The notes below the pieces were generated by a model. It made no database searches and was not told the DNA's origin. It saw only the letters and a list, made by a program, of their open reading frames with translations. Made by a program: the position numbers and the translations under genes. A stretch of 64,000 nt of DNA from Sulfuritalea sp. (lineage in GTDB: Bacteria > Pseudomonadota > Gammaproteobacteria > Burkholderiales > Rhodocyclaceae): the NCBI GenBank assembly GCA_022842325.1, contig JALHPU010000004.1, positions 62,001 to 126,000 of the forward strand, read 5' to 3'. How positions within the stretch are numbered: the first letter of the stretch is position 1; each line of letters begins with the position of its first letter. This document shows, piece after piece, positions 5,425 through 48,737 of this stretch.

Positions 5425-5943
5425 TTGTGTCGCGAGCACCTGTCCTTGTCTGATTCGATTGCCGGAACAGTTATCGACTGTCTTGAGTTCGCGCGTAGTG
5501 GTGGTGTGCTGGAGCGTAGCGTTGGCCTGGATGAATTGCCGCGTCTGGCAGACCTGCTGGTGACCAAGACCGGGGTATTGACGGTCCGGGTCGAAGGAAG
5601 GCGCGACGACCAAGGCAAGTCCTGGTTGCAGCTGGAAGTAAGCGGCGAGCCGGAGCTGTGTTGTCAGCGTTGCCTGCAGGGCGTGAAGTTTCCGCTGGGT
5701 ATAAGGAGCCGGTTGCAGTTGATTGGGCCGGGGGAGGAGTGGCCGGACGACGATCTGGTCGATGACAGCGCAGATGCCATCGCAGCCGATAAAGCGCTGG
5801 CCGTGCTGTCACTGGTTGAGGAAGAAGTGTTGCTGGCGCTGCCTATCGCGCCGCGACACGAGCAGTGCGAATCGCCCTCGGCGACCGTAATTGAACATGG
5901 ATCATCGCCGTTCGCGGCGTTGGCCGCTTTGAAGAAGCATTGA
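5425..5943 (+). CDS. yceD: YceD/DUF177 family protein (23S rRNA accumulation)
   Basis: Up to 172 residues. YceD is needed for normal 23S rRNA accumulation and is conserved upstream of rpmF; its molecular activity is unclear. Visible are IDCLEFARSGGVLE near residue 18, a paired-cysteine block CCQRC near 79, and a C-terminal FAALAAL segment typical of the family. The start is uncertain: the frame allows TTG at 5425 or TTG at 5446, and a TTGAAA box at 5388 with GATAAC near 5410 would place transcription very close to 5425. It is followed 18 bp later by rpmF, so the two are cotranscribed. Confidence 0.85.
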   Translation: MCREHLSLSDSIAGTVIDCLEFARSGGVLERSVGLDELPRLADLLVTKTGVLTVRVEGRRDDQGKSWLQLEVSGEPELCCQRCLQGVKFPLGIRSRLQLIGPGEEWPDDDLVDDSADAIAADKALAVLSLVEEEVLLALPIAPRHEQCESPSATVIEHGSSPFAALAALKKH

Positions 5944-5961
5944 AACGCAAGGAGTAGCGAA

Positions 5962-6141
5962 ATGGCTGTACAACAGAACAAGAAGTCCCCGTCCAAGCGC
6001 GGCATGCATCGTGCGCATGATTTTCTGACCAACCCGCCGCTGGCCGTAGAGCCGACCACGGGCGAGGTGCACCTGCGCCACCATATTTCGCCGTCCGGCG
6101 TGTATCGCGGCAAAAAGGTTGTGAAGGCCAAGGGCGAATAA
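5962..6141 (+). CDS. rpmF: 50S ribosomal protein L32
   Basis: 59 residues beginning [20 protein letters not shown] and ending in a basic tail ([10 protein letters not shown]), an unmistakable bacterial L32. It lacks the zinc-binding cysteine pairs found in some L32 proteins. A clean ribosome site (AAGGAG at 5949-5954) precedes the ATG. It follows yceD as in many proteobacteria, but the usual plsX-fab genes do not come next; a terminator and a repeat element do. That suggests a rearrangement, or at least a break in the usual block. Confidence 0.97.
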
Positions 6142-6156
6142 TCCACCTTGCTGAAA

Positions 6157-6191
6157 CCGGCCGGATGCGTGTTGCGCATCCGGCCGTTTTT
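6157..6191 (+). terminator. intrinsic terminator after rpmF
   Basis: A perfect 12-bp stem (CGGCCGGATGCG at 6158-6169 with its complement at 6175-6186), a 5-base loop and a run of five T. It ends the yceD-rpmF transcript. Confidence 0.9.
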
Positions 6192-6207
6192 ACATAAAGA
6201 GCCCAAG

Positions 6208-6474
6208 AGCCTATTCCAGTAGGAATCATGCCCCGCGTTGAGACCAGGATCGGATGGATGCAAGGCGCAGTGCGCGGCCAATGGTTGTTCCATTGGCAAG
6301 CGCTGCAACGCCGCAGACGCCGATCCTGGTCTCAACCCGAAGGGCCGCCGGGCGTTGGGCGCGCTGCCACGTTGTCGGTCGTTTGCATGGAGGGACCATG
6401 CGGCACTTCCTCCGCCTCGCATCGCATCCCAACGCCCGACGGCGCGGGGCACGATTCCTACTGAGATAGACTCC
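6208..6474. repeat. nested inverted-repeat intergenic element (MITE-like)
   Basis: Outer arms AGTAGGAATCATGCCCCGCG (6218-6237) and its reverse complement (6443-6462) differ at one base of 20, with weaker pairing outwards to about 6208 and 6474. Inside is a perfect 16-bp pair TTGAGACCAGGATCGG (6238-6253) and complement (6320-6335), and inside that a 7-bp pair CCAATGG/CCATTGG around 6278-6296. No convincing protein is encoded. Apart from the rpmF terminator, it fills the gap between rpmF and ompR, so the ompR promoter must lie in or near it. Confidence 0.7.
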
Positions 6475-6480
6475 TAGCCC

Positions 6481-7209
6481 ATGAACGAAACCAAAGCCAA
6501 GATCCTGGTCGTCGACGACGATCTGCGCCTGCGCCAGTTGCTCGAGCGCTATCTCTCCGAGCAGGGCTTTACGGTCAAGGCCGTGCCCGATGCGCCGGGC
6601 ATGGACCGCGCGCTGGAACGCGAGCTCTACGACCTGATCGTGCTCGACCTGATGCTGCCCGGCGAGGATGGCCTCGCCATCTGCCGCCGCCTGCGCGGCA
6701 GCGCCAATCCCGTCAGCATCATCATGCTGACGGCCAAGGGCGACGAGGTGGATCGCATCGTCGGGCTCGAGATCGGCGCCGACGACTACCTGCCCAAGCC
6801 CTTCAATCCGCGCGAACTGGTGGCACGCATCCACGCCGTGCTGCGCCGCCGCGCCGCACCGCCGCCGCCCGGCGCCCCGGCGATCACCGAAGAGACGGTG
6901 AGCTTCGGCAGAGTGCGGATCAACCTGGCGACGCGGGAACTCGAGCGCGACCAGGAGACCACGCTGCTGACCTCGGGCGAGTTCGGCCTGCTGCGGGTGC
7001 TGCTCGAGCATCCGCGCCAGCCGATGAGCCGCGACAAGCTGATGGAACTGGCGCGCGGCCGCGAGTATGAAGTATTCGACCGCGCCATCGACGTGCAGAT
7101 CTCGCGGCTGCGCAAACTCGTCGAGGAAGATCCCGGCAAGCCGCGCTACATCCAGACCGTCTGGGGTTTTGGCTACGTCTTCGTTCCTGACGGAAAAAAA
7201 CACGAATGA
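6481..7209 (+). CDS. ompR: OmpR-family response regulator
   Basis: 242 residues: receiver domain (about 7-120) with acidic pair D13/D14, phospho-acceptor D56 in LIVLDLMLPGEDG, the T/K switch residues in MLTAKGD and DYLPKPFNP, then a winged-helix DNA-binding domain (about 140-237, ending YIQTVWGFGYVF). The linker and C-terminus match OmpR more than PhoB or KdpE. It overlaps envZ by ATGA, so the pair is translationally coupled. No obvious ribosome site precedes the ATG, which follows the inverted-repeat element by a few bases. The regulated genes cannot be read from the sequence. Confidence 0.92.
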   Translation: MNETKAKILVVDDDLRLRQLLERYLSEQGFTVKAVPDAPGMDRALERELYDLIVLDLMLPGEDGLAICRRLRGSANPVSIIMLTAKGDEVDRIVGLEIGADDYLPKPFNPRELVARIHAVLRRRAAPPPPGAPAITEETVSFGRVRINLATRELERDQETTLLTSGEFGLLRVLLEHPRQPMSRDKLMELARGREYEVFDRAIDVQISRLRKLVEEDPGKPRYIQTVWGFGYVFVPDGKKHE

Positions 7210-8555
7210 AGCTGCTGCCGCGCTCGCTGCTGTGGCGCACCTTTCTGTTCGTGGCCCTGCTGATGCTGCTCTCGGTAGCCGCCTGGTTCGCCATTTTCAG
7301 GGCTTACGAGCGCGAACCGCGCGCCCGCCAACTGGCGCAGACCCTGGTCAGCGTCGCCAACTTGACACGCGCCGCGCTGATTTCCGCGCGGCCCGAGGCG
7401 CGTCGCGCACTGTTACGCGAATTGTCCGATCGCGAAGGCATTCGCATCTATCCGGCGGATGCGAAGGACCGCATCGCGCCGCTGCCCGACCGCGCCTTTT
7501 TGCACCTGGTGGAAGAACAGGTCCGGGAGCAACTGGGGCCGACCACCCGCCTGAGTCTGGAGCGAGAAGGCGAACGTGCCCTGTTCGTCAATTTTCGCAT
7601 CGACGACAACGATGACGACAGCTACTGGCTGGCCCTGCCGCGCGAACGCATCGAGCGCGTGTTTCCGCTGGGCTGGCTGGGCTGGGGCGTAGCCGCACTG
7701 CTGCTCTCGCTGCTCGGCGCCTGGCTCATCGTGTTTCGCATCACCCGCCCGCTCAAGGCCCTGCAGCAGGCGGCACGCAAAGTCGGCGCGGGCGAGACGC
7801 CGGCGCGGCTCGACGAATCCGGCCCGACCGAACTGGCGACCGTCGCCCGCGCCTTCAACCAGATGAGTTCCGATCTGGCGCAGATCGATCAGGACCGCGC
7901 GCTGATCCTGGCCGGCGTGTCGCACGACCTGCGCACGCCGCTGACCCGCCTGCGCATGGGCATCGAGATGTCCGCTGACGAAAGCCTGCGCGAAGGCATG
8001 ACGGCCGACATCGAGGAAATGGACAAGACCATCGGCCAGTTCCTCGACTTCGCCCGCTCCGAAGGAGGCGAAACGCCGCAGGCGGTGGATCTCGCCGCCC
8101 TGCTGGACGATCTCGCCAGCCAGTACCGGCGCCGCGGCTTCACGGTAGCGCTGGCCGCGCCCGTCGCCGGCGCCGCGCCAGCGCCGACTTTTGACCTGCG
8201 GCCACAGGCCCTGCGCCGCGCCGTCAGCAACCTGATCGACAACGCGCTGCGCCATGCCGGCCGCGACAACCCGGTCGAGCTCGGCCTGAGCGCTGCCGCC
8301 GGCGAGATCGTGATCGAGGTAGCGGATCGCGGCCCCGGCATTCCGCCGCAGGACGTGGAGCGCATCAAGCGTCCCTTCGCCCGGCTCGAGGCCGCGCGCA
8401 GCAATACCGCCGGCGCCGGACTGGGACTGGCCATCGTCGAGCGTATCGCGCGTTCCCACAACGGCCGTCTGGAACTGCTGCCGCGCGACGGCGGCGGCCT
8501 GGTCGCCCGCCTGGCATTGCGCCCACTGATTCCACAACCCGCCACCGCACCATGA
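7206..8555 (+). CDS. envZ: EnvZ-like osmosensor histidine kinase
   Basis: 449 residues. Membrane segment 1 is about residues 8-30, a periplasmic region runs to about 155, membrane segment 2 is about 156-178, HAMP about 179-232, a dimerisation/phosphoacceptor domain with H240 in GVSHDLRTPLTRLRMGIE (the EnvZ H-box), and a HATPase domain with NLIDNALRHA, DRGPGIP and GAGLGLAIVERI boxes. It phosphorylates OmpR. It overlaps ompR by 4 bp and the next gene, a truncated globin, by 4 bp; the three form one operon. One copy of the dispersed motif lies in the linker before the ATPase domain (APVAGAAPAPTFD). Confidence 0.92.
   Translation: MKLLPRSLLWRTFLFVALLMLLSVAAWFAIFRAYEREPRARQLAQTLVSVANLTRAALISARPEARRALLRELSDREGIRIYPADAKDRIAPLPDRAFLHLVEEQVREQLGPTTRLSLEREGERALFVNFRIDDNDDDSYWLALPRERIERVFPLGWLGWGVAALLLSLLGAWLIVFRITRPLKALQQAARKVGAGETPARLDESGPTELATVARAFNQMSSDLAQIDQDRALILAGVSHDLRTPLTRLRMGIEMSADESLREGMTADIEEMDKTIGQFLDFARSEGGETPQAVDLAALLDDLASQYRRRGFTVALAAPVAGAAPAPTFDLRPQALRRAVSNLIDNALRHAGRDNPVELGLSAAAGEIVIEVADRGPGIPPQDVERIKRPFARLEAARSNTAGAGLGLAIVERIARSHNGRLELLPRDGGGLVARLALRPLIPQPATAP
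8177..8189 (+). repeat. dispersed motif copy 2 (inside envZ)
   Basis: Exact GCCAGCGCCGACT core, read in frame as APAPT. The upstream GCCGT half is degenerate. Confidence 0.5.
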
Positions 8556-8959
8556 ACCAGACTATTAGTGCCAGCCCGTTTTCCCGGATCGGCGGCGAGC
8601 CAGCCGTGCGCCGCCTCGTCAAGCGTTTCTACGAACTCATGGATACCCTGCCCGAGGCCTACGGCATCCGCAAGCTGCATCAGCCGGATCTGTCCGGCGC
8701 CGAGGAAAAACTGTTCATGTACCTCTGCGGCTGGCTCGGCGGCCCGCAACTGTATGTCGAGAAATTCGGCCACCCCAAACTGCGCGCGCGCCACCTGCCG
8801 TTTCCGATCGCCAGCGACGAAGCCGAACAGTGGATGCTCTGCATGCGCACCGCCATGGCAGAGACGATCGAAGACGCCGCGCTGCGCGCTGCGCTGGACA
8901 AGTCGCTCAACGATCTGGCCTACCACATGCGCAACCGCAACGATCCGCCTGCGGCCTGA
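8552..8959 (+). CDS. group II truncated hemoglobin (TrHbO type)
   Basis: 135 residues of the 2-over-2 globin family. The N-terminal FSRIGGEPAVRRLVKRFYELMDT, the proximal histidine H81 in RARHLPFPI, and W94 (G8 position) in EQWMLCM define group II. Such globins bind oxygen, CO or NO, and some act in oxygen or redox chemistry. The gene starts inside the envZ stop (ATGA), so it is translationally coupled to a two-component system. This context suggests that its level is set together with OmpR/EnvZ; the physiological role is not visible. Confidence 0.92.
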   Translation: MNQTISASPFSRIGGEPAVRRLVKRFYELMDTLPEAYGIRKLHQPDLSGAEEKLFMYLCGWLGGPQLYVEKFGHPKLRARHLPFPIASDEAEQWMLCMRTAMAETIEDAALRAALDKSLNDLAYHMRNRNDPPAA

Positions 8960-8969
8960 CGCGGCCGCC

Positions 8970-10112
8970 CTAGAGGTCGCTGCTCGCCTGTTGCCGGCGC
9001 AGAAATCGGGCATGCCGATGGCGTGCCATCAGGCGCGGATCGGTGACGATCAGGCCGATGGTTTCGCCGATCACCATGACCACGCCCAGTACCGGCAACA
9101 CCAGCATCAGTCCGGGGATGCCGGCCACCGCGCCGCCGACGAAAATCATCAGCACCGTCACCAGCGGGTGAAGTTCCAGGCTCTTGCCGATGGTCAGCGG
9201 CATGTAGAGGAAATCGTCGAGCAGGCGCACCATGACGAACAGGCCGATGGCCCAGTAGGCCATGGACGGCGCATCCGGAAAGTCGGTGGCGGCCACCAGC
9301 ACCACCAGCAGGCCGCCGAGGATCGAGCCGACATAGGGCACCCAGGCCAGCACTGCGCAGATCAGGCCCAGCGCCAGCGGCCCGGGAATGCCCAGCAGCC
9401 AGAGGCCGGCCGCCAGGGTCAGCGTATCCAGCAAGGTGAGGTTGATCAGGCCCTGGAAATAGGCGCGCGAAGTGCGGTCGATCTCGTGCAGCAGGAACAG
9501 CGTCTTCTCGAAAAACGCATTGGGTACCGCCGCGCTCAGAAAACGCTCGAAACGATGCCCGTCGCGCAGGAAGAAGAAAGCCAGGAACGGCGCCAGCAAG
9601 AGCGAAGGCGTCCAGGCCATGACGCCGATCGCGATCGGCTCCAGGTGGTCGGTGACACTGCCGGCGCCCTGCGCCAGCCGCGCCGCGACCGTGTCGGCGA
9701 GCCGGGCGCGGGCCAGCGTGGACCAGCTGGCTTCGAGCGCACGCAGGGACGAATCGAGCAGTTGCATGCCGCCCTGCGCATAGCGCGTCACGGTGTCCTG
9801 CCAATCCGCCAGTTGCCGCGCCACCCACGGCGTCATGCCGATCCCGACCACGCACAGCAGGACGAGAAATACCACGATGACCAGACTCGCCGCGGCATCG
9901 CGGCTCATGCCGCGATAGATCAGCGCCCTGACCAGCGGATACAGGAAGTAATACAGAATCAGGGCCAGCAGAAACGGCACCACCAGCCACAGCATTTTCT
10001 GGAATACCAGCAGCAGCAGGCAGGTGGTGGCAATGATTGCGGCCCAAACCACGGGTCCGGAGCCATTGTGCGCAGGGCGCGGCAGCGCTGCCTCGATCGA
10101 TGGTGCGCTCAC
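8970..10112 (-). CDS. AI-2E family transporter (PerM/YdgG-like permease)
   Basis: 380 residues with about seven or eight hydrophobic segments: three in the first 100 residues, a long amphipathic region (about 100-170), then LLAPFLAFFFLRDGHRF near 172, the conserved YFQGLINLTLLDT region, GIPGPLALGLICAVLAWVPYVGSILGG, and two terminal helices. The family was named for TqsA, an autoinducer-2 exporter, but includes ion antiporters, so the substrate is unknown. It lies 9 bp downstream of the cNMP-binding gene and converges on the globin gene with an 10-bp gap. Confidence 0.88.
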   Translation of the reverse strand: MSAPSIEAALPRPAHNGSGPVVWAAIIATTCLLLLVFQKMLWLVVPFLLALILYYFLYPLVRALIYRGMSRDAAASLVIVVFLVLLCVVGIGMTPWVARQLADWQDTVTRYAQGGMQLLDSSLRALEASWSTLARARLADTVAARLAQGAGSVTDHLEPIAIGVMAWTPSLLLAPFLAFFFLRDGHRFERFLSAAVPNAFFEKTLFLLHEIDRTSRAYFQGLINLTLLDTLTLAAGLWLLGIPGPLALGLICAVLAWVPYVGSILGGLLVVLVAATDFPDAPSMAYWAIGLFVMVRLLDDFLYMPLTIGKSLELHPLVTVLMIFVGGAVAGIPGLMLVLPVLGVVMVIGETIGLIVTDPRLMARHRHARFLRRQQASSDL

Positions 10113-10121
10113 GGCTCGCCG

Positions 10122-10736
10122 CTACACCAGATGCTGATGGGCGCTGATTGACAGCGCCATGTTGCGCATGCGCGCGCCGAGGTGGCAGGCCAGCTGCCGC
10201 GAGATCTTCGAGGCGATGCGGGCGTGCGTATCGAGCAGGCCGACGAAGTCGTCGCGGAAAAACACGATCAGCTGGCACGGTGCGGCGGCGCGGGCCTGCG
10301 CCGAGCGCGGCGAATTGTCCAGCAGCGCCAGTTCGCCGAAGAAGGTGCCCGGACCAAGCTGCGCCACGAGACCGGTATCCCCCTGCCGTCGCCGCGGATG
10401 GAAACCGGTTTGCTCATTCGCGCCGGCTTGCGCCGCCCGACCGGGATCCGCCTGTTCCTGGCGGGAAATCAGCACTTGGCCGGCAGCGACGATGTAGATG
10501 GCCTGCCCTTCCTCGCCCTCGTCGAAAATCACCTCGCCTTCGAGATAGCTGCGTTCATGCAGCAGGCCATCGACGATCTGCAACTCGGCCGGCGTGAGAT
10601 GCACGAACAGGCTGAGGCCATGCAGGCGTTCCAGGCGCGGGCTGGTTTTTTTCGGGCGAAACAGATTGACCACGGTATCGGCTCCAACAACAGGATGCGG
10701 CAAAGTCTCGTTCAGGTCGGGCGCGCCCGCCAGCAA
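10122..10736 (-). CDS. cyclic-nucleotide-binding domain protein
   Basis: 204 residues: a linker of about 30 residues (LFRPKK), then one cNMP-binding fold (about 40-175) with GEVIFDEGEEGQAIYIV near 67 and the phosphate-binding cassette GTFFGELALLDNSPRSAQARA. There is no DNA-binding domain, so it is not a Crp-type regulator. A hydrophilic insertion (about 98-122, with HPRRRQGD) interrupts the fold between the two conserved blocks. It is cotranscribed with the AI-2E permease 9 bp downstream and may regulate it; this is inference from position. The start at 10736 is tentative. Confidence 0.8.
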   Translation of the reverse strand: MLAGAPDLNETLPHPVVGADTVVNLFRPKKTSPRLERLHGLSLFVHLTPAELQIVDGLLHERSYLEGEVIFDEGEEGQAIYIVAAGQVLISRQEQADPGRAAQAGANEQTGFHPRRRQGDTGLVAQLGPGTFFGELALLDNSPRSAQARAAAPCQLIVFFRDDFVGLLDTHARIASKISRQLACHLGARMRNMALSISAHQHLV

Positions 10737-10751
10737 TGACGGGATTCTAAT

Positions 10752-11306
10752 TCAATCAGCGTCCGCTTCGACGAGCGAAAAGCCGGCCAGGGTCTTGTAG
10801 CTCGCCGCGGACGGATGCAGGTGAGTCTCGACCAGGGCGAACTCGTCAACGCGCCAGCGCACCGGCGTCTCCAGCCGCGGCAGCGATGCGCAGCGGATGC
10901 GGCGCGCCAGGGTGACGTGTGCCACCTGCGCCGCCCCGGTGCGATGGTCGATGGCGAAGCCGGCCTCGCGCAGCGCGGCGGCCAGCCGCTCGGACAGTGC
11001 GCGCAAGGCGGGCGGCAGCGTGCTGCAACCGGCCCACAGGATGCCGCGTTGCGGCCAGAAGCCGAGGCGGTCGAGGCTCAGATCGAAGGCGGGGGCGCGT
11101 ATCGCGGCGGCAATCCGCTCGAGTTCGGCAAGCCGGGTCGGCGTTACCGAACCGATGAAGGCCAGCGTCAGATGCAGCGTGGCCGGGCGCATCAGCCGTC
11201 CGCCGCCGTTGCCCGCCAGGCTGTGCGCCAGCGCCGCCAGGTGGCCTGCGGCTTCCTGGTCCGGCCACAACGCGAAGAACACGCGGTGCGAGCGCGCCTC
11301 GGTCAT
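10752..11306 (-). CDS. thpR: RNA 2',3'-cyclic phosphodiesterase (2'-5' RNA ligase family)
   Basis: 184 residues with the two HxTx motifs of the 2H phosphoesterase family, HLTLAF near residue 46 and HVTLAR near 128. The family opens 2',3'-cyclic phosphates to 2'-phosphates and can ligate tRNA halves in vitro. The start was set at 11306 ([15 protein letters not shown]) because it overlaps the ispF stop as ATGA and begins the fold; a longer frame upstream is only the reverse of ispF. It is translationally coupled to ispF. Confidence 0.88.
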
Positions 11307-38870: not shown

Positions 38871-40010
38871 TTACTTGAGGATCTTCCAGTCGCCGTTTTC
38901 GACCGTGGCCATGATCGCGGCACGACCGTCGAAACCGTTGTGGTCCTTGGGCGACATGTTGAACACGCCGTGCACGCCGGGCAGTTCCTTGACGTTTTCC
39001 AGTGCATCGCGCAGGGCGACGCGGAACTCGGCGGTACCGGGCTTGGCCTTCTTCAGCGCCTCGGGCACGGCGCGGTTGAGCAGCAGGTAGGCATCCCAGC
39101 CGTGGCCGCCGAAAGTGGACCGGCTGTTGGCACCGTGCGCAGCTTCATAGATCTTGATGTACTCGAGCGCCGCCTTCTTCGACGGATGGCTGTCGGGCAG
39201 TTGCTCGGCCAGCAGCATCGGGCCGACCGGGAACAGCGTGCCTTCGACGTTCTTGCCGCCGACGCGCAGGAAATCGCGATTGGCGATGCCGTGCGTCTGG
39301 TAGAACTTGCCCTTGTAGCCGCGTTCGATCAGGGTTGCCTGCGGCAGCACCGCCGGCGTGCCGGACCCGGCGATCAGGATCGCATCCGGATTGGCCGCGA
39401 TCAGCTTGAGCGCCTGTCCGGTGACGCTGGTGTCATTGCGCTGATAGGCCTCCGAGACGCTGATCTTGATGCCCTTGGCGTCGGCGGCTCCCTGCATCGC
39501 CTTCAGCCAGAGCTGGCCGTAGGGATCGGCGTAACCGATGAAACCGATGGTCTTGACCTTGTTGGCGGCCATGTGGTCGGCAATCGCGATGGCCATCTGG
39601 GTGAAGTTCTGCGGCGTGGTGAACACCCAGGGCGCCTTGTCGCCGGCAGGCGGCAGCGGCGCCATGGCGATCTGCGGCGTCTTGGTCTCGAACGCGACTT
39701 CGAGGATCGCCATCGAGGTCGGCGTTGCGGTCGAGGCGATCAGCGCATCGACCTTGTCTTCGCCGGTGAGCTTGCGCGCGTTCTTTACCGCCGTGCTGGG
39801 ATCGGTGGCATCGTCGAGCACGATGTACTTGACCTTCTGGCCGCCGACCGTCTGCGGCAGCAGGGCAAAGGTGTTCTTCTCGGGGATGCCCAGCGAGGCC
39901 GCCGGACCGGTGGCCGAAACGCTGACGCCGATGGTGATGTCGGCCCAGGCCGAACCTGCTGCCAGAGCCAGCGCCAGCGCTGATGCCAATGCAAGTGTCT
40001 TCACGTTCAT
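38871..40010 (-). CDS. branched-chain amino acid-type ABC substrate-binding protein
   Basis: 379 residues with a signal peptide (residues 1-23, ALASALALALAAGSAWA) and the type I periplasmic-binding fold of the LivJ family (ITIGVSVSATGPAASLGIPE, VLDDATDPSTAVKNARKL, FIGYADPYGQLWLKAM). No permease or ATPase gene is beside it, so it may use the livHMGF system at 51.6-56.2 kb or another one. The ATG at 40010 has a perfect AGGAGGAG site; a longer frame upstream would bury it. A consensus promoter lies 62-89 bases upstream. Confidence 0.9.
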   Translation of the reverse strand: MNVKTLALASALALALAAGSAWADITIGVSVSATGPAASLGIPEKNTFALLPQTVGGQKVKYIVLDDATDPSTAVKNARKLTGEDKVDALIASTATPTSMAILEVAFETKTPQIAMAPLPPAGDKAPWVFTTPQNFTQMAIAIADHMAANKVKTIGFIGYADPYGQLWLKAMQGAADAKGIKISVSEAYQRNDTSVTGQALKLIAANPDAILIAGSGTPAVLPQATLIERGYKGKFYQTHGIANRDFLRVGGKNVEGTLFPVGPMLLAEQLPDSHPSKKAALEYIKIYEAAHGANSRSTFGGHGWDAYLLLNRAVPEALKKAKPGTAEFRVALRDALENVKELPGVHGVFNMSPKDHNGFDGRAAIMATVENGDWKILK

Positions 40011-40062
40011 GTCTCCTCCTGTTTTTTGATATGGTGTGCGCCCGCCTCTGGTTACCCGAAGC

Positions 40063-40109
40063 GTCGAACGGATTGTAGGCGAGGTTTGTTCGATGTCAAC
40101 CTGTTCGAC
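40063..40109 (-). promoter_or_regulatory. sigma-70 promoter of the binding-protein gene, with operator-like repeats
   Basis: On the minus strand TTGACA (40094-40099), a 16-base spacer and TACAAT (40072-40077), close to consensus. GTCGAAC (40063-40069) and GTTCGAC (40103-40109) form an inverted pair around the promoter, and a GTTCGAT lies at 40088-40094 over the -35 box. These look like binding sites for a regulator. Confidence 0.7.
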
Positions 40110-40264
40110 TAACACCTACGTGGCAAACTTGCCGCCACCACTTTACCCGCAATCACCCGCCGTCAGCTGCAAAGTCTCGCTCCCGGATCGCCCAAGCCTC
40201 CGGTTCCGGCCTCTGTGGGCAGTACGTCCCGCCCCCGGCGATCCGCTCCGGCGCCTGCAAAGCA

Positions 40265-40287
40265 GGAGTCGGCGCCGGCGCTACGGC
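40265..40287 (-). repeat. dispersed motif copy 10 (intergenic)
   Basis: On the minus strand GCCGT-AGC-GCCGGCGCCGACTCC, one base off the core. Confidence 0.65.
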
Positions 40288-40360
40288 AATTCCGCAGTTC
40301 CGCCAGCGCAGTCAGCCGGGACGGGAGGATCAGCCGCGGCTGCGCCTCCGCCGTCGGGCA

Positions 40361-42946
40361 TCAAATGGGGATGAAGGACGTGCTCTTCGGCTGGCTTTCG
40401 CCTTCCGGCCGGATAACCTGGGCGTTCACCCAGGTCGTGCCGAAATTGCTCTCGGTGACCGGCTTGCCGAAACGGAAGCCCTGCAGGATGTCGCAATCCT
40501 GCGCCATCAGGAAGGACCATTGCTCGTCGGTCTCGACTCCCTCGGCGATGATCTGCAATCCCAGCGCCTGGGCCATGCGCACCGCGGCGATGACCAGGGC
40601 GCGGTCGCTGCGATCCCCGGAAACGTCGTGGATGAAGCTGCGGTCGATTTTCACGGTATGGAAAGGAAACTCGCGCAGATAACTCAGCGACGAATAGCCG
40701 GTACCGAAGTCGTCCATCGACAGCCGCACGCCAAGCGCGTGAAGTTCCTCGAGGATCACCCTGACCTCGCCCTGATTGCGCAACAGCAAGCCTTCGGTAA
40801 TTTCGATCTCGAGTTGCTGCGGCGGCACCTGGAATTCGGCAAGGCACTGCTTGACCATGGCGACGAAACCGCTGGTCTTGAACTGGCGCGGCGATACATT
40901 CACCGCCATGACGAAACCCGGCTGCCGCTCCCGCCAGCGCGCGAGCGTGGCACAGGCTTCGCGCAGCACCCAGCGCCCGAGATCGACAATCAGCCCGTTC
41001 TGCTCGGCGACCGGGATGAACGTGGCCGGCTGCACTTCGCCGAGCTCCGGGCTGTTCCAGCGCAACAACGCTTCGGCGCCGATGATGCAGCCGCTGTCGG
41101 CACGCACCAGCGGGTGGTAGACCACGTGCAGTTCCTGGCGCTCCAGCGCACCGCGCAGGCAGCGTCCGATCTCCAGTCGCTGCAATGACAGGTCGTGGAT
41201 CGAACGGTTGTAGAAGCGGTACATGTTGCGGCCCGAGTCCTTGGCTTCGTACATCGCCAGATCGGCATTGCGCAGCAGCACCATGGGCTCGGTACCGTCG
41301 TCCGGATAGACCGCGATGCCGATGCTGGGCGAGGTGGTGATTTCGCGTTCATCCACGTTGAACGCCTCGGCGAACGTCGCGATGATCTTTTCCGCGATGG
41401 CGGCGGCTTCGTCGCCGTGATCGAGTCCGCCGGCGACAATCAGGAACTCGTCGCCACCCAGACGTGCCACGATGTCATCGCCGCGCACCGAGCCTACCAG
41501 TCGCTGCGCCACCTGGCGCAGCAGGGTATCGCCGACGGCATGGCCCAGTGTGTCATTGACTTCCTTGAAGTTGTCGAGATCGAGAAACATCGCGCCGACC
41601 TTGCCGCCGTCGCGCCGGGCGCGGCTGACTGCCTGCACCAGGCGATCGTTGGCCAGCACCCGATTGGGCAGGCCGGTCAGCAGATCGTAGTGCGCCTGGT
41701 AGGTGATTTTTTCCATCTGCTGCCGCTGTTCGGTGATGTCCTCGCGCGACAGCAGCAGGTGGGTCGCGCGTCCGCTCTCGTCATGCACGGCGCCAAGCCG
41801 CAGGCGCTCCCAGTAGGCGCCGTCGCCGCGCCGGCTGGGCTGCTCGAGTTCCCAGATGGCGCCGCTGGTTGCCACCCGCAAGGCATTGTCGGCATCGAGC
41901 GGATCCGCCGTATGCATCACCTCGATCAGCGGCTGTTCGATCGTCTCGTCCGGCGACCGGCCGGTAATCCGGCAATAGGCCGGATTGACGAACTCCACCA
42001 GGCCGCCGATACGCGCGATCAGGATGCCTACCGGATTCTGCTCGACTACCTGCGAGAAGCGCACCAGACGACGATTGGCGCTCTTCAGATCGGCAGTACG
42101 CTCGTTGACGCGGTGCTCGAGTTCGAGCTGCGCGGCACGCAGGGCCGTCTCCCGCGACAATACCTGCTGTCGCATGGTGCCGAAGGCTTCGGCCAGATCG
42201 CCGATTTCGTCGAATCGGGCGATCGCGATGTGGCCGCTTTCCTCTCCTGTCGCCAACTTTCGCGCATGGTTGTGCAGGATCCCGATACGGCGTACCACCG
42301 TCTGCCCGGAATAGGCCAGCCCAAGGAAAATCACCAGACCGCCGGCCAGGACCAGCCAGAGGAAGTCGCGCCGCTGCTTCAGTTGTTCCTCCATGGCGAG
42401 CTGATAGGCTGCATCTGCGGCAGCCTCGGTCTGCTCGGCGACCTCGGCGAGCAGCACCTGGATCGACAGGTAGGGAATGTGGGATCCGGAGGACGTTATT
42501 CCCCGCACCGCCGCAAGATTCATCTCGCTTGCCAGCCGTGCCTGCTCGTTCAGGCGGGCACGATAGTCGCGCCAGTGGCCCGACAGGCGCTGCGCCTCGC
42601 TCGGGGATGCTGTGCCAAGCGTCAATGAGAACTTGCCAATGTCACGGTCGAGAATGGCAATTTCGCCTCTAAGCCGGGTAATCTGCGATTGCAGGGCGAA
42701 GACGTCCTCCAGATGCCCGAGTTCCAGTTCGAGATTGCGCAGGTTGCCGACCCGCGCCTGCAGCGTGTGCAAACGCGCCAATGGCCGGACATGGCGCTCC
42801 AGCGCATTGACCAGACGCTCCGAGGACTTTTCCAGCATCTGATTGCCGGCAAACAGCAGGACAGCCATCAGCAGGCCGGCACCGGCAAAGCCGAGCAGCA
42901 ACTGCGGCAGAAGCCCGAAGCGGGTGGGCAGTTTGATCAATGCCAT
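40361..42946 (-). CDS. membrane GGDEF-EAL protein with periplasmic, HAMP and PAS domains
   Basis: 861 residues. Membrane helix 1 about 12-33, a helical periplasmic domain about 34-195, helix 2 about 196-218, HAMP to about 275, a PAS domain about 295-415 (FVNPAYCRITGRSPDE), GGDEF about 425-585 with intact RLGGDEF, and EAL about 600-850 with EALLRW, NVSPRQF, EITEGLL, DDFGTGYSS, KIDRSF and AEGVE. Both catalytic motifs look intact, so it could make or break c-di-GMP. It begins directly after the stop of a periplasmic binding-protein gene, with no spacer, and no transport genes are present. By analogy with the Vibrio NspS-MbaA pair, the binding protein may control it; that is inference. Confidence 0.92.
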   Translation of the reverse strand: MALIKLPTRFGLLPQLLLGFAGAGLLMAVLLFAGNQMLEKSSERLVNALERHVRPLARLHTLQARVGNLRNLELELGHLEDVFALQSQITRLRGEIAILDRDIGKFSLTLGTASPSEAQRLSGHWRDYRARLNEQARLASEMNLAAVRGITSSGSHIPYLSIQVLLAEVAEQTEAAADAAYQLAMEEQLKQRRDFLWLVLAGGLVIFLGLAYSGQTVVRRIGILHNHARKLATGEESGHIAIARFDEIGDLAEAFGTMRQQVLSRETALRAAQLELEHRVNERTADLKSANRRLVRFSQVVEQNPVGILIARIGGLVEFVNPAYCRITGRSPDETIEQPLIEVMHTADPLDADNALRVATSGAIWELEQPSRRGDGAYWERLRLGAVHDESGRATHLLLSREDITEQRQQMEKITYQAHYDLLTGLPNRVLANDRLVQAVSRARRDGGKVGAMFLDLDNFKEVNDTLGHAVGDTLLRQVAQRLVGSVRGDDIVARLGGDEFLIVAGGLDHGDEAAAIAEKIIATFAEAFNVDEREITTSPSIGIAVYPDDGTEPMVLLRNADLAMYEAKDSGRNMYRFYNRSIHDLSLQRLEIGRCLRGALERQELHVVYHPLVRADSGCIIGAEALLRWNSPELGEVQPATFIPVAEQNGLIVDLGRWVLREACATLARWRERQPGFVMAVNVSPRQFKTSGFVAMVKQCLAEFQVPPQQLEIEITEGLLLRNQGEVRVILEELHALGVRLSMDDFGTGYSSLSYLREFPFHTVKIDRSFIHDVSGDRSDRALVIAAVRMAQALGLQIIAEGVETDEQWSFLMAQDCDILQGFRFGKPVTESNFGTTWVNAQVIRPEGESQPKSTSFIPI

Positions 42947-44425
42947 CTATCGCGACGCCGACTCGCCCGGCTCTCCGCCGCCAAATCCGGCATGGAAAGT
43001 CCTGAGCCACGGCAACTGTCGCTCGCGGCCCCGTTGCTGGGTAATTTTCTCCCAGTCCTGCGCCGTACGCCGCATCGCTTCCCTGGCGGAAATCTTGCTG
43101 CGGGCTGCCAGCGAAAGATTGTTATCGAGCGCGTCGAGATATTCGCCGTCGCCTGGCAAACCTGTTCCGGGCGGCAGGGCCATCAGCCATTCGGAACGGA
43201 ATACCTCGAGCGCCTGCGGCGTGTAGAGCTCCTTGATGCGGGAATCCACCAGGTGGTGCCAGCGATACGGATCGGTAAAGCCACCGGTAACGCCGACCGT
43301 GCGCACCGAGTTGTCCGGATCGGTCAGCCACATGGTGAACAGGAATGCGAGCTTGCGTTGCTTGCCGCGACTGGACACCACCAGGTTGTTGCCATAGATG
43401 GGCATGTTGTGGCGCACGATGCCGCTGCCGAGCCGATTGCCCGGGATCGGAATCGCAATGAATTTTCCGCGCACCGCCGACGTCGGGGCATTGAACAGCT
43501 TGGCGGCGGATATGGTGCCGCCGATCGCAAACACCTTGCCCTGCATGAAAAGGGGAAAGGTGTAGCTGTAATCCTTGCCGTCGGCCAGAATTTCCGGGGG
43601 TGAATAACGCACCGTGCGCACATAGCTCTCGGTCGCCGCAACTCCCGCAGGGGAATCAATCAGCGGCTTCAGGTTGTCGTCGAACAGATTGCGGTGCGGT
43701 TCGCTCTGCGCGAAATAGCGCGGCAGCCAGTACATCCAGCCGCCGGACGGATCGCGTTCCTCGGCGGTACCGTAAAGCCCCTTTTCCGGCCGATGAAAGA
43801 ACTTGATCAGCTGATCGTAATCCTGCCAGGTCCTGGGTATCGCCAAATCACGGCCGTAGGCCTTGCGAAAGGCGGCCCTTTCCGCCGGATCCTCAAGCAG
43901 ATCGCGCCGCAGATAATAGATCGTCACATCGCCATCGGCTGGAATTGCCACTACCTTGTCGCCGAAAAACCCCTGCAGGCGCGGGCGCACGAAGCCCTGC
44001 GGCGGCACGCTTTCGATGCGGAAGCCGTATTCCTTGAGCAGCGGCGCCAGATCCTCGACCAATCCCTGCTCCAGCAGATCGGGAAATTCATGGGTACGCG
44101 CCACCGTCAGATCGGTATCCGGATGCGCCTTGAGATTGGTGAGAGCAGCCTGTTGTGGAATCACGCGTGCGGCAATCACGATGCCGCTGCGTTGCTCCCA
44201 CTCTTTTTGCAGTTCGAGCTCGGGACCCAGCAGCGCTGCAATATTTCCCGATTTGAACGCGACCTTGATGGTAGCGTCGCGGCGGACCTCACCCGAGGCA
44301 ACCATCTGTTTTACCGCTGCCAGCGCCCGCTCTGCCTGTTCTCCTGCGCTCACCGTAGCGGAGCCGCAAACGACCGCAAGGCCAAGCAAGCCCGCCATTG
44401 CACGATACCATCCCGGTCCAGCCAT
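42947..44425 (-). CDS. extracellular solute-binding protein (family 1 type) paired with a GGDEF-EAL protein
   Basis: 492 residues. A signal peptide (to about residue 27, ending ATVSAG) is followed by a maltose-binding-protein-like two-lobe fold (VIPQQAALTNLKAHPDTDLTVARTHEF, VAIPADGDVTIYYLRRDLLEDP, FPLFMQGKVFAIGG). The ligand is not clear. The start at 44425 has GGGGAG upstream; an earlier in-frame ATG at 44449 is less likely. It is immediately followed by the GGDEF-EAL gene and no ABC transporter gene lies nearby, which argues for a sensing role. Confidence 0.85.
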   Translation of the reverse strand: MAGPGWYRAMAGLLGLAVVCGSATVSAGEQAERALAAVKQMVASGEVRRDATIKVAFKSGNIAALLGPELELQKEWEQRSGIVIAARVIPQQAALTNLKAHPDTDLTVARTHEFPDLLEQGLVEDLAPLLKEYGFRIESVPPQGFVRPRLQGFFGDKVVAIPADGDVTIYYLRRDLLEDPAERAAFRKAYGRDLAIPRTWQDYDQLIKFFHRPEKGLYGTAEERDPSGGWMYWLPRYFAQSEPHRNLFDDNLKPLIDSPAGVAATESYVRTVRYSPPEILADGKDYSYTFPLFMQGKVFAIGGTISAAKLFNAPTSAVRGKFIAIPIPGNRLGSGIVRHNMPIYGNNLVVSSRGKQRKLAFLFTMWLTDPDNSVRTVGVTGGFTDPYRWHHLVDSRIKELYTPQALEVFRSEWLMALPPGTGLPGDGEYLDALDNNLSLAARSKISAREAMRRTAQDWEKITQQRGRERQLPWLRTFHAGFGGGEPGESASR

Positions 44426-44526
44426 CGCCTGTTCTCCCCTTCCCGGCATTCCGGGATCAGCTTTTCAAGTTTAATACCAAGGTTCGCATAAAGCCTTTTC
44501 AAGCAAAAATCGCGCCGAAAAGGTCG

Positions 44527-45159
44527 CTAGCGACCCGTGGTAGCGAGGTGCAAGGCGAGACCAAAGAAAATCATCGCGGCGCAGCGATCGAGCCACACCG
44601 CAAGCCGTGGCTGCTGCTGCAGGCGCGCGCCGACGCTGCCGGCAAACCAGCCGAGGCTGCCGAAGATCAGCACCGTCTGCGCCGCGAACAGGGCACCCAG
44701 CAGCAGCATCTGACCCCAGACGGCACCGCGCGCCGGATCGACGAACTGCGGCAGGAAGGCGATGAAGAACAGCGCCACCTTGGGATTGATCACGTTGGCG
44801 ATGAAGCCCCGGCGCACATGCGCGGCAAGCGGTTCGGCGCTGCCGTCATCGAGTTTGATCAATGCCATCTTTCCCGCATCGCGCCAAGCCTGGACGCCGA
44901 TATAGACCAGGTAGGCGGCGCCCGCCATCTTCAGCGTGGTGAAAGTGGCCTCCGAGGCCAGCACCACGGCACCGATGCCCAGCGTTGCCCACAGCGTATG
45001 CGTGAAGCAGCCCAGGGCGCAGCCCAGGCCAAAGCCGATTCCGGCCGAACGGCCGCGGCTGATCCCGACGGACAGCACCATCAGGTTGTCCGGCCCCGGC
45101 GCGATGGTGATCAGCGCAGACGCCGCAAGAAATGCGAGCAGGACTTCGAGAGAGATCAT
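44527..45159 (-). CDS. LysE/RhtB family amino acid exporter
   Basis: 210 residues with six hydrophobic helices. The signature APGPDNLMVLSVGISRGRSAGIGFGLGCA is near the N-terminus, and GFIANVINPKVALFFIAFLPQF near residue 117. Family members export amino acids such as threonine, homoserine, lysine or leucine. The start follows the MFS gene stop directly, so they are cotranscribed. Substrate unknown. Confidence 0.92.
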   Translation of the reverse strand: MISLEVLLAFLAASALITIAPGPDNLMVLSVGISRGRSAGIGFGLGCALGCFTHTLWATLGIGAVVLASEATFTTLKMAGAAYLVYIGVQAWRDAGKMALIKLDDGSAEPLAAHVRRGFIANVINPKVALFFIAFLPQFVDPARGAVWGQMLLLGALFAAQTVLIFGSLGWFAGSVGARLQQQPRLAVWLDRCAAMIFFGLALHLATTGR

Positions 45160-46398: not shown

Positions 46399-47841
46399 TC
46401 ACAGGCCGGCCATGGCCAGGTACTTGATCTCCAGGTATTCCTCGATGCCGTGACGCGAACCTTCGCGGCCCAGGCCCGACTGCTTGACGCCGCCGAAGGG
46501 TGCGACCTCATTGGAAATCACGCCGGCATTGATGCCGACCATGCCGTAATCCAGCGCCTCGCCGACGCGCCAGGCGCGCGCGATGTCGCGGCTGTAGAAA
46601 TACGCGGCAAGGCCGAACTCGGTATCGTTGGCCAGGCGCACCGCCTCGGCTTCATCCTTGAAGCTGAAGATCGGCGCCACCGGGCCGAAGATCTCCTCGC
46701 GCGCCAGGCGCATCGCCGGTGTCGCGCCGGTCAGCACCGTCGGCTCGAAGAAGGTGCCGCCGCGCGCATGGCGCTGGCCGCCGCAGAGCACTTTCGCACC
46801 CTGCGCCACCGCATCCGCCAGCAATTCCTCGACCTTGGCCAGCCCGGCGCCATCGATCAGCGGGCCTTGCGTGACGCCCTCCTCCAGTCCGCTGCCGACC
46901 TTGAGCCCGGCCACCGCGGCCGCCAGTTTCTGCGCAAACGCATCGCGCACGCCTTCCTGCACCAGGAAGCGATTGGTGCAAACGCAGGTCTGCCCCGTGT
47001 TGCGGTATTTCGAGGCCATCGCCCCGGCCACCGCGGCGTCGAGGTCGGCGTCGTCGAAGACGATGAAGGGTGCATTGCCGCCGAGTTCCAGCGACATTTT
47101 CTTGATCGTCGGCGCGCACTGCGCCATCAAGAGCCGCCCGACCTCGGTCGAGCCGGTGAAGGACAGCTTCAGCACTTTCGGATTCGAGGTCAGTTCGCCG
47201 CCGATCGGCACCGGTTCGCCGGTCACGATGTTGAGCACGCCGGGCGGAATGCCCGCCTGCGCCCCGAGCCAGGCCAGCGCCAGCGCGGAAAGCGGCGTCT
47301 GCTCGGCCGGCTTGACCACCATGGTGCAGCCGGCGGCCAGGGCCGGCGCCACCTTGCGCGTGATCATCGCCGCCGGGAAATTCCACGGCGTGATCGCCGC
47401 GCAGACGCCGACCGGCTGCTTCAGCACGATCAGGCGGCGATCCGGCAGCGGCGAAGGAATGACTTCGCCATACACACGGCGCGCCTCCTCGGCGAACCAC
47501 TCGATGAAAGAGGCCGCGTAGGCGATCTCGCCGCGCGCCTCGGCCAGCGGCTTGCCCTGCTCCAGAGTCATCAGCCGTGCCAGGTCTTCCTGGTTTTCCA
47601 TCATCAGTTCGAACCAGCGCTTGAGTATCTTGGCCCGCTCCGCCGCCGTCTTCGCCCGCCACGGATGAAAGGCGGCCTGCGCGGCATCGATCGCGCGACG
47701 GGTTTCGGCGGCGCCGAAACTCGGCACCGAGCCCACCAGTTCGCCCGTGGCCGGGTTGCGGACTTCGAGGCTGGCGCCGGTGGCAGTCAACCATTCACCA
47801 TCGATCAGGCAGGCATTGCGCAGGAGTTCAGGATTCTTCAT
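46399..47841 (-). CDS. gabD: NAD(P)-dependent succinate-semialdehyde dehydrogenase
   Basis: 480 residues of the aldehyde dehydrogenase superfamily. TPWNFPAAMITRKVAPALAAG near residue 154, FTGSTEVGR near 230, the catalytic glutamate in LELGGNAPFIVFDDAD and the catalytic cysteine in NTGQTCVC near 283, EEIFGPVAP. Closest to GabD. Just upstream is hpaI, whose product succinic semialdehyde would be its substrate. The pair makes a sensible end of an aromatic-acid degradation route. Confidence 0.92.
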   Translation of the reverse strand: MKNPELLRNACLIDGEWLTATGASLEVRNPATGELVGSVPSFGAAETRRAIDAAQAAFHPWRAKTAAERAKILKRWFELMMENQEDLARLMTLEQGKPLAEARGEIAYAASFIEWFAEEARRVYGEVIPSPLPDRRLIVLKQPVGVCAAITPWNFPAAMITRKVAPALAAGCTMVVKPAEQTPLSALALAWLGAQAGIPPGVLNIVTGEPVPIGGELTSNPKVLKLSFTGSTEVGRLLMAQCAPTIKKMSLELGGNAPFIVFDDADLDAAVAGAMASKYRNTGQTCVCTNRFLVQEGVRDAFAQKLAAAVAGLKVGSGLEEGVTQGPLIDGAGLAKVEELLADAVAQGAKVLCGGQRHARGGTFFEPTVLTGATPAMRLAREEIFGPVAPIFSFKDEAEAVRLANDTEFGLAAYFYSRDIARAWRVGEALDYGMVGINAGVISNEVAPFGGVKQSGLGREGSRHGIEEYLEIKYLAMAGL

Positions 47842-47917
47842 GGGGTGCTTTCGATATCAAAGTTAAAGTTTAGCCGGACTGCGCCGAAAGGCGGGGGCCG
47901 ATCCCATGCCAGCACCC

Positions 47918-47940
47918 GCCGTGTCGCCAGCGCCGACTCC
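47918..47940 (+). repeat. dispersed motif copy 11 (between hpaI and gabD)
   Basis: GCCGT-GTC-GCCAGCGCCGACTCC in the 101-bp gap, ending 2 bases before the hpaI stop codon. Same 23 bp as copy 5. Confidence 0.8.
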
Positions 47941-47942
47941 TG

Positions 47943-48737
47943 TCAGTTCGCTGCGTCGGGTTCGGCCTTGCCGTCGCGAAAAGACCCGGCCAGCTTGACC
48001 GCGGCGCTGCGCAACAGCGTGGTATCGCCGCCGACGGCGATGAAGCTGGCGCCGCAGTTGCGGTAATGCCGGGCCAGCCCCGGTTCGGTGACGAAAACAC
48101 CGGCCGCCTTGCCGCTTGCCGCGATGCGCGCCAGGGCAGCCTCGATCGCCGCCCTCACCTCGGGATGCCCGGCATCGCCGAGGTGCCCGAGCGAAGCGGC
48201 GAGATCGGCCGGACCGATGAATACCGCATCGACACCGTCCACGGCCAGTATGGCGTCGAGATTTTCCAGCCCCTGGCGGGTTTCGACCTGAACCACCAGG
48301 CAGACCTCCGCGTTGGCATGCTTTACGTAATCCTTGATGCCGGTCCACTGCGCGGCGCGGGCCAGCGAGGCCGCGACGCCGCGGATGCCCTCGGGCGGGT
48401 AGCGCACCGCGCGTACCAGTTGCCGAGCCTGTTCGGCGTCGTCGACCAGCGGCAGCAGCAGGGTCTGCGCGCCGGCGTCGAGATACTGCTTGATCAGCGC
48501 CGGATCGTGGCTCATCGGCCGCACCAGCAGCTGCACCGGGTAAGGCGCCGCGGCCTGCAGCTGCGCCAGCACGCTGGCGGGATTGTTGGGCGAATGCTCG
48601 GCATCGATCACCAGCCAGTCGAAGCCGGCGCCGGCGAGAATCTCCATGCTGTAGGAGCTGGCCAGGCCGACGAACAGGCCGACCTGCCACTGCCCCTGCC
48701 GCAGCTTTTGCTTGAAGATGTTTTTCGGCATGTCCAT
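47943..48737 (-). CDS. hpaI: HpcH/HpaI family aldolase
   Basis: 264 residues. FDWLVIDAEHSPNN near residue 40, LLVRPMSHDPALIKQYLDAGAQTLLLPLVDDAEQA and VQVETRQGLENLDAI near 150 with the metal-binding glutamate and aspartate (DAVFIGPADLAASLG). The family cleaves 4-hydroxy-2-oxo acids; HpaI of the homoprotocatechuate pathway gives pyruvate and succinic semialdehyde, which matches gabD downstream. Which hydroxy-oxoacid is used cannot be decided. It starts 7 bases after the LysR gene. Confidence 0.9.
   Translation of the reverse strand: MDMPKNIFKQKLRQGQWQVGLFVGLASSYSMEILAGAGFDWLVIDAEHSPNNPASVLAQLQAAAPYPVQLLVRPMSHDPALIKQYLDAGAQTLLLPLVDDAEQARQLVRAVRYPPEGIRGVAASLARAAQWTGIKDYVKHANAEVCLVVQVETRQGLENLDAILAVDGVDAVFIGPADLAASLGHLGDAGHPEVRAAIEAALARIAASGKAAGVFVTEPGLARHYRNCGASFIAVGGDTTLLRSAAVKLAGSFRDGKAEPDAAN

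Follow-up and report, generated by a model that had tools for sequence, protein, structure and literature searches.

A maltose-binding-like solute-binding protein encoded directly before a GGDEF-EAL receptor in Sulfuritalea, a probable two-protein reader of an outside signal

Results

The gene pair

The window analysed here is a 64 kb stretch of contig JALHPU010000004.1 from a 4.89 Mb Sulfuritalea sp. assembly of 121 contigs (GCA_022842325.1). It holds two adjoining genes on the minus strand, one for a solute-binding protein (SBP; 42947..44425, 492 residues, SBP_bac_8/SBP_bac_1, MalE-like by profile) and one for a membrane receptor (40361..42946, 861 residues) with the order transmembrane segment (TM)-sensor-TM-HAMP-PAS-GGDEF-EAL. 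The SBP stop codon TAG at 42949-42947, preceded by CGA, is followed at 42946 by an ATG for the receptor, giving a gap of 0 nucleotides (nt) with that start. A preliminary description of this DNA had reported an SBP gene directly before a membrane GGDEF-EAL gene with a periplasmic domain, and both genes lie where it placed them. It had further called them fused in an operon without spacer; the spacer is indeed absent, but the genes are adjacent and separate. In what follows G numbers denote genomes, G000 being the window's own, and L numbers denote the loci compared.

The SBP start ATG at 44425 stands behind a GGGGAGA-type ribosome site, and a further in-frame ATG lies 24 nt upstream at 44449. 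A signal peptide is predicted over residues 1-27 (44345..44425, minus strand), with cleavage between ATVSA and GEQ judged by eye from the translation. The protein has a cysteine but no lipobox and is therefore expected to be a soluble periplasmic protein. A promoter scan of 39900-44700 found none in front of the SBP gene and one site elsewhere, against 1.2 expected.

Class and ancestry of the solute-binding protein

Pfam matched the window SBP to SBP_bac_8 (61.1 bits) and SBP_bac_1 (51.6 bits) and to no other family. As a single sequence it found nothing significant in the PDB (0.91 for the leading ABC binding protein). A profile built from 12 SBPs of the family matched MalE3 (2.1e-5) and the trehalose/maltose-binding protein TMBP (1.2e-4), with weaker, non-significant matches to two family-1 SBPs (0.015 and 0.036), Lin1841 (0.025) and SmoF (0.27). 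The same profile retrieved neither PotD nor PotF up to E=10. As a positive control, the PotD-like SBP of G000 (L093), used as a single sequence, matched PotF/PotD relatives down to 1.6e-50. The profile matches support placing the window SBP in the MalE/TMBP (maltose-like) class and not with PotD, in agreement with the maltose-binding-like class given in the preliminary description.

In a 38-row tree, which omits L152 (broken SBP frame) and L041 and L147 (partial SBPs), 20 focal SBPs form one clade (100/100) without an ABC-linked member. The 18 distant SBPs comprise 13 with MalFG-type permeases and five beside sensors (L048, L150, L151, L156, L157). Since these five fall apart from the focal clade, signalling seems to have recruited SBPs of this superfamily more than once, although several such branches are long and their placement is unsure. 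At four of the five loci (L048, L150, L156, L157) the SBP adjoins histidine or hybrid kinases in the same or divergent orientation, and no MalFG-type permease is present in the stretches compared. At the fifth, L151 (G318, 5571-11150), MalE-type and ribose-type (Peripla_BP_4) binding proteins are joined in one gene. Within a few bases begins the gene of a receptor whose periplasmic part is long and seems helical and is followed by PAS, GGDEF and EAL; this is an apparent two-ligand reader. In G134 (L152) one TGA and one TAA interrupt the frame of the distant SBP relative; about 3 kb from it, a GGDEF-EAL gene is likewise spread over two frames.

The receptor

Hydropathy places the two membrane segments of the receptor at about residues 12-34 and 194-213, with about 159 periplasmic residues between them. 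This periplasmic sensor (residues 35-193, 42368..42844, minus strand like the domains that follow) is a predicted four-helix bundle and is the segment kept in paired receptors. Behind it lie a HAMP domain (residues 216-262, 42161..42301, 32 bits), a PAS domain (residues 297-403, 41738..42058, 40.7 bits), a GGDEF domain (residues 418-574, 41225..41695, 164 bits) and an EAL domain (residues 597-829, 40460..41158, 244 bits). The GGDEF motif stands at residue 497, an RGDD I-site at 488 and the EAL motif at 625; the remaining EAL catalytic motifs are intact. The enzyme should be able both to make and to break cyclic di-GMP (c-di-GMP).

A structural model of residues 1-270 (mean predicted local distance difference test score, pLDDT, 73.5; about 79-94 for residues 51-190) shows a four-helix bundle, with long helices that run into the membrane. 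The ligand-binding domain of Vc1313 was the top match in Foldseek (9.6e-4), and VIA-align gave it Z 16.1 (root-mean-square deviation 2.4, 156 of 157 residues). The VIA-align scores of MCP2201 (14.8) and the TorS sensor (14.7) are close to that of the unrelated vinculin (14.9), so the model supports only the fold class, which for the sensor is apparently a four-helix bundle. Tar ranks low in Foldseek (2lig, 0.084) and is absent from the 50 VIA-align matches listed, which proves nothing.

Conservation of the pairing

The preliminary description had proposed conserved adjacency as a check, and the pairing holds up well. In a first sample of 101 genomes (G000 and 100 relatives) the SBP matched in 25. 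In 15 of these the identity is at least 49%, and in each of the 15 the same sensor is present in the adjoining gene. Extending the SBP search, at E 1e-25, to the class (369 genomes), the order (399) and the phylum (398) added G311, G187, G779, G723, G695 and G665, with the receptor next door in five of the six. The downstream side is unreadable in G187, where the contig ends inside the SBP gene, and for a second, partial SBP of G723 at a contig edge. In total, 22 loci have an SBP of at least 48% identity, and a sensor-bearing receptor is adjacent in 20 of the 20 that can be read, window included. Such constancy argues that the pairing is not due to chance. For weak SBP matches, neighbours were examined in the retrieved subset. 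In the 11 relatives from the genus whose receptor is GGDEF-EAL, the likely receptor start (the one nearest the conserved N-terminus) falls between -4 and +18 nt relative to the SBP stop codon. The reverse search, with the sensor alone in the 101 genomes, gave 17 matches: the same 15 genomes, G021, whose contig begins inside the sensor, and G081, a weak match (1.9e-4).

The 20 paired receptors comprise 18 of GGDEF-EAL type (in two of them the contig ends within the EAL domain), one histidine kinase and one hybrid kinase. All 18 family receptors that have a GGDEF also carry the RxxD I-site. In G007, of the same genus, a sensor-HAMP-PAS-histidine kinase stands in place of the GGDEF-EAL protein. 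A REC-DUF3369-HD-GYP gene (its REC part scores 26.8 bits, below the Pfam cut-off of 30.2) ends there 39 nt before the GTG of the SBP gene and 48 nt before its first ATG. With this HD-GYP gene so placed, the G007 kinase may reach a c-di-GMP output by way of a phosphorelay. G311 (L054) has a sensor-HAMP-hybrid kinase with receivers and a LapD-like gene tail to tail on the opposite strand. That SBP and sensor are kept while the rest changes is expected if those two parts work together.

Search for a matching importer

The preliminary description had noted that no transporter accompanies the pair. This is correct for ABC permease and ATPase genes, none of which lies beside it, but a LysE-type exporter gene and an MFS gene are close by. 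No MalF/MalG-type permease occurs anywhere in the 64 kb window, whose only ATPase-like matches (54.7-56.2 kb) are inside a Liv/Urt-type cluster. Across the stretches round 20 pairs (3.4-19 kb, and 64 kb for the window) such a permease was found in 0 of 20, while two control loci in the same scan scored up to 171 and 471 bits. ATPase-like matches also occur near the far ends of two of the 20 stretches. A remnant of an ABC operon was considered as the origin of the pair and is rejected on the same count.

An ABC permease elsewhere that depends on this SBP had been named as the finding that would speak against a signalling role, and no MalF/MalG-type permease was found in G000. PF00528 matches 19 times in the genome above the cut-off, a figure in which two double-length genes appear twice; compared with six MalF/MalG-type references, its permeases reach at best 56 bits and 28% identity. 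One of the 20 permease entries in that comparison (L078) was read out of frame; the whole-genome searches are independent of it. A MalG-type query had no match in the whole of G000, and a MalF-type query only two (47.9 and 27.1 bits), in genes that, judged by eye, resemble those of iron- and polyamine-type permeases. The same queries reached best scores of 138-187 bits in two control genomes, self and near-self matches aside. Six further carriers (G072, G311, G665, G695, G723, G779), searched with the MalG-type query only, gave at most 38.7 bits. Separately, contig C14 of G000 carries seven SBP_bac_8 genes (L096-L100, L102, L103) in about 42 kb (26.6-68.8 kb), a stretch that includes a single double-length permease gene; binding proteins outnumber PF00528 permeases in this cluster.

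Neighbouring genes

The LysE-type exporter gene ends 101 nt before the SBP gene, and the MFS gene abuts it. An HpaI/GarL-type aldolase gene and then a succinate semialdehyde dehydrogenase (SSADH) gene lie at 46399-48737 (minus strand); this would suit the formation of pyruvate plus succinate semialdehyde and then oxidation. SSADH and LysE genes precede the pair in 10 of the 11 GGDEF-EAL relatives of the genus, together with MFS in three of these; in G009 the contig ends in the SBP gene. No match to the SSADH, LysE or MFS neighbours was found in the stretches of G007, G038, G072 and G311. At L054 (G311) about 1.9 kb, holding the LapD-like gene, separates the hybrid kinase from a galactarate/altronate dehydratase gene. 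These neighbours are too little to name the ligand.

Downstream of the receptor, a separate Leu-type binding protein gene (Peripla_BP_6, 38871-40000, minus strand) stands alone at a distance of 360 nt, with a TTGACA-16-TACAAT site at 40099-40072; a beta-CASP nuclease is encoded on the other strand. Among the relatives' stretches compared, only that of G022 (L034 = L051) matched the Peripla_BP_6 gene, and partially. Liv/Urt-type permease and ATPase genes occupy 51.6-56.3 kb of the window.

Discussion

We propose that the pair is a dedicated two-protein receptor, and consider this the probable reading of the locus. The SBP would be exported to the periplasm and bind a small molecule there. Its membership of the MalE/TMBP class makes a carbohydrate or related polar compound the most likely ligand. 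The ligand-loaded SBP would dock on the periplasmic four-helix sensor, and the docking signal would pass through TM2, HAMP and PAS. This would shift the balance of GGDEF-driven synthesis and EAL-driven breakdown, and so, in either direction, the level of c-di-GMP. Transport would play no part.

Parts of this arrangement are known elsewhere. Maltose-binding protein is read by Tar and TorT by TorS, in both cases through a helical-bundle periplasmic sensor, and the partner of Tar is itself of the MalE class. Tar drives chemotaxis, and maltose-binding protein has a further role with an importer. TorT belongs to the type I binding proteins, whereas the window SBP matches only SBP_bac_8 and SBP_bac_1. 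ScrB-ScrC of Vibrio parahaemolyticus likewise joins a putative periplasmic binding protein to a GGDEF-EAL partner, but reads an autoinducer made by ScrA. The window SBP shares the MalE-like class with the SBPs of CUT1-type ABC importers, but their partner MalF/MalG permeases were found neither in G000 nor in the stretches round the 20 pairs.

The closest likeness is to NspS-MbaA of Vibrio cholerae and Sinorhizobium meliloti, where an SBP gene stands directly before or overlaps a gene for a HAMP-GGDEF-EAL receptor. Its ligand signalling is separate from transport, and in V. cholerae norspermidine-loaded NspS raises synthesis by MbaA while MbaA without NspS favours breakdown (PMC8967002, PMC9993111). 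The preliminary description had drawn this analogy, and it is apt as a way of working. As far as predicted features go, the window pair is like NspS-MbaA in operation yet departs from it in three of the features tested. NspS is PotD-like and the window SBP MalE/TMBP-like. MbaA has SGDEF and no RxxD I-site, and in S. meliloti a periplasmic part of about 233 residues (PMC9993111), against GGDEF with RGDD and about 159 residues here. In addition, the window receptor has a PAS domain, and none is mentioned for MbaA.

Other precedents differ in output or binding protein. ArtI is needed for the Salmonella diguanylate cyclase STM1987 to answer L-arginine (PMC8846402), but there the sensor is dCACHE, the output is a cyclase, and ArtI binds arginine and is not MalE-like. 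The same c-di-GMP review gives SBP_bac_3 as the only member of the periplasmic-binding-protein clan studied in c-di-GMP networks (PMC8846402), and activation of cyclase/phosphodiesterase receptors by SBPs is stated elsewhere with citation of the Vibrio work (PMC9602780). In the CuaD-CuaS system of Ruminiclostridium cellulolyticum a sugar SBP, distinct from that of the importer, signals to a receptor/kinase (PMC10384115), but its output is the two-component system CuaSR controlling an importer. Among the entries listed in searches of open-licence papers, none showed a GGDEF-EAL receptor partnered by a MalE-class SBP. SBP-receptor signalling is thus already known as a kind, and the pairing of a MalE-class SBP with a GGDEF-EAL receptor is a new variant of it.

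The SBP could instead feed an ABC importer encoded elsewhere and sit beside the receptor through accident or co-expression. Its kin outside the focal clade are mostly importer SBPs (13 of the 18 in the tree), and among 14 genus and family carriers searched with both queries, G001, G016 and G027 hold a MalF/MalG-like pair, scoring 92-97 and 46-55 bits. Two of the three were inspected, G016 and G027, and in both an SBP gene belonging to the pair immediately precedes it; the system resembles Ugp. Service of the window-type SBP to this importer was rejected on that ground. Moreover, none of the PF00528 permeases of G000 is close to the MalF/MalG type and none of that type lies near any of the 20 pairs, which leaves an importer elsewhere very unlikely. 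A true NspS-MbaA system reading polyamines is more improbable still. It would share the gene order, the tight spacing and the combination of an SBP with a HAMP-GGDEF-EAL receptor, and the PotD-like SBP of G000 has Pfam SBP_bac_8 in common with the window SBP. The failure to match PotD or PotF with a working positive control, and the receptor features set out above, speak against it.

A stronger competitor, though an unlikely one, is that direct ligand binding falls to the four-helix sensor itself, as in Tar and MCP2201, and that the SBP is an aid (a second input, ligand carrier or stabiliser) and not the obligatory reader. The fold matches are largely direct binders: Vc1313 (D-Arg/D-Lys), MCP2201 (citrate/malate), McpS and NarQ. 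Against this, every clear sensor match in the 101 genomes adjoins an SBP or lies at a contig start, and the SBP is better conserved than the sensor (lowest pairwise identity among 17 pairs 47% versus 29%). Several observations count against the two-protein receptor itself, in addition to the MalFG-like pairs of the three carriers. The window sensor does not match Pfam 4HB_MCP_1 (PF12729); among the scanned family receptors only that of G038 (29.3 bits) exceeds the cut-off of 27, with G072 at 26.9 and G779 at 19.4. Conservation at the membrane-distal end of the sensor is not significantly higher (p = 0.087). Twelve loci of the GGDEF-EAL form come from a single genus, so the 20 do not represent 20 independent events, and 19 of the 20 focal-clade SBPs have a receptor, the neighbour of L143 being unreadable at a contig end. 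The mirror-tree correlation of SBP and sensor distances (r 0.96) is equalled by that of SBP and GGDEF-EAL (also 0.96); common descent explains this, and the mirror-tree lends no support of its own. An AlphaFold2 model of the SBP from six sequences (mean pLDDT 42.7) is too low in confidence to define a cleft or docking face.

The dedicated two-protein receptor may belong to something wider. Tentatively, and with slightly less than even confidence, we suggest a portable cassette for outside sensing, made of a MalE-class SBP and a four-helix receptor without an importer of its own. It would have been plugged into GGDEF-EAL proteins, a kinase beside an HD-GYP regulator and a hybrid kinase, mostly where no such sugar importer is found. 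A carbohydrate-type ligand would then act as a signal and nothing else, mostly in c-di-GMP control.

To our knowledge, an external signal has been identified for only a few GGDEF-EAL receptors. In this pair the signal would be read by a freestanding soluble protein, and ligands of its class are open to thermal-shift screening, which could lead straight to the input behind c-di-GMP. The natural output swaps offer a ready-made comparison of one periplasmic input driving a cyclase-phosphodiesterase, a kinase and a hybrid kinase. In genomes of this kind, sugar uptake does not necessarily follow from the annotation 'sugar ABC transporter substrate-binding protein'.

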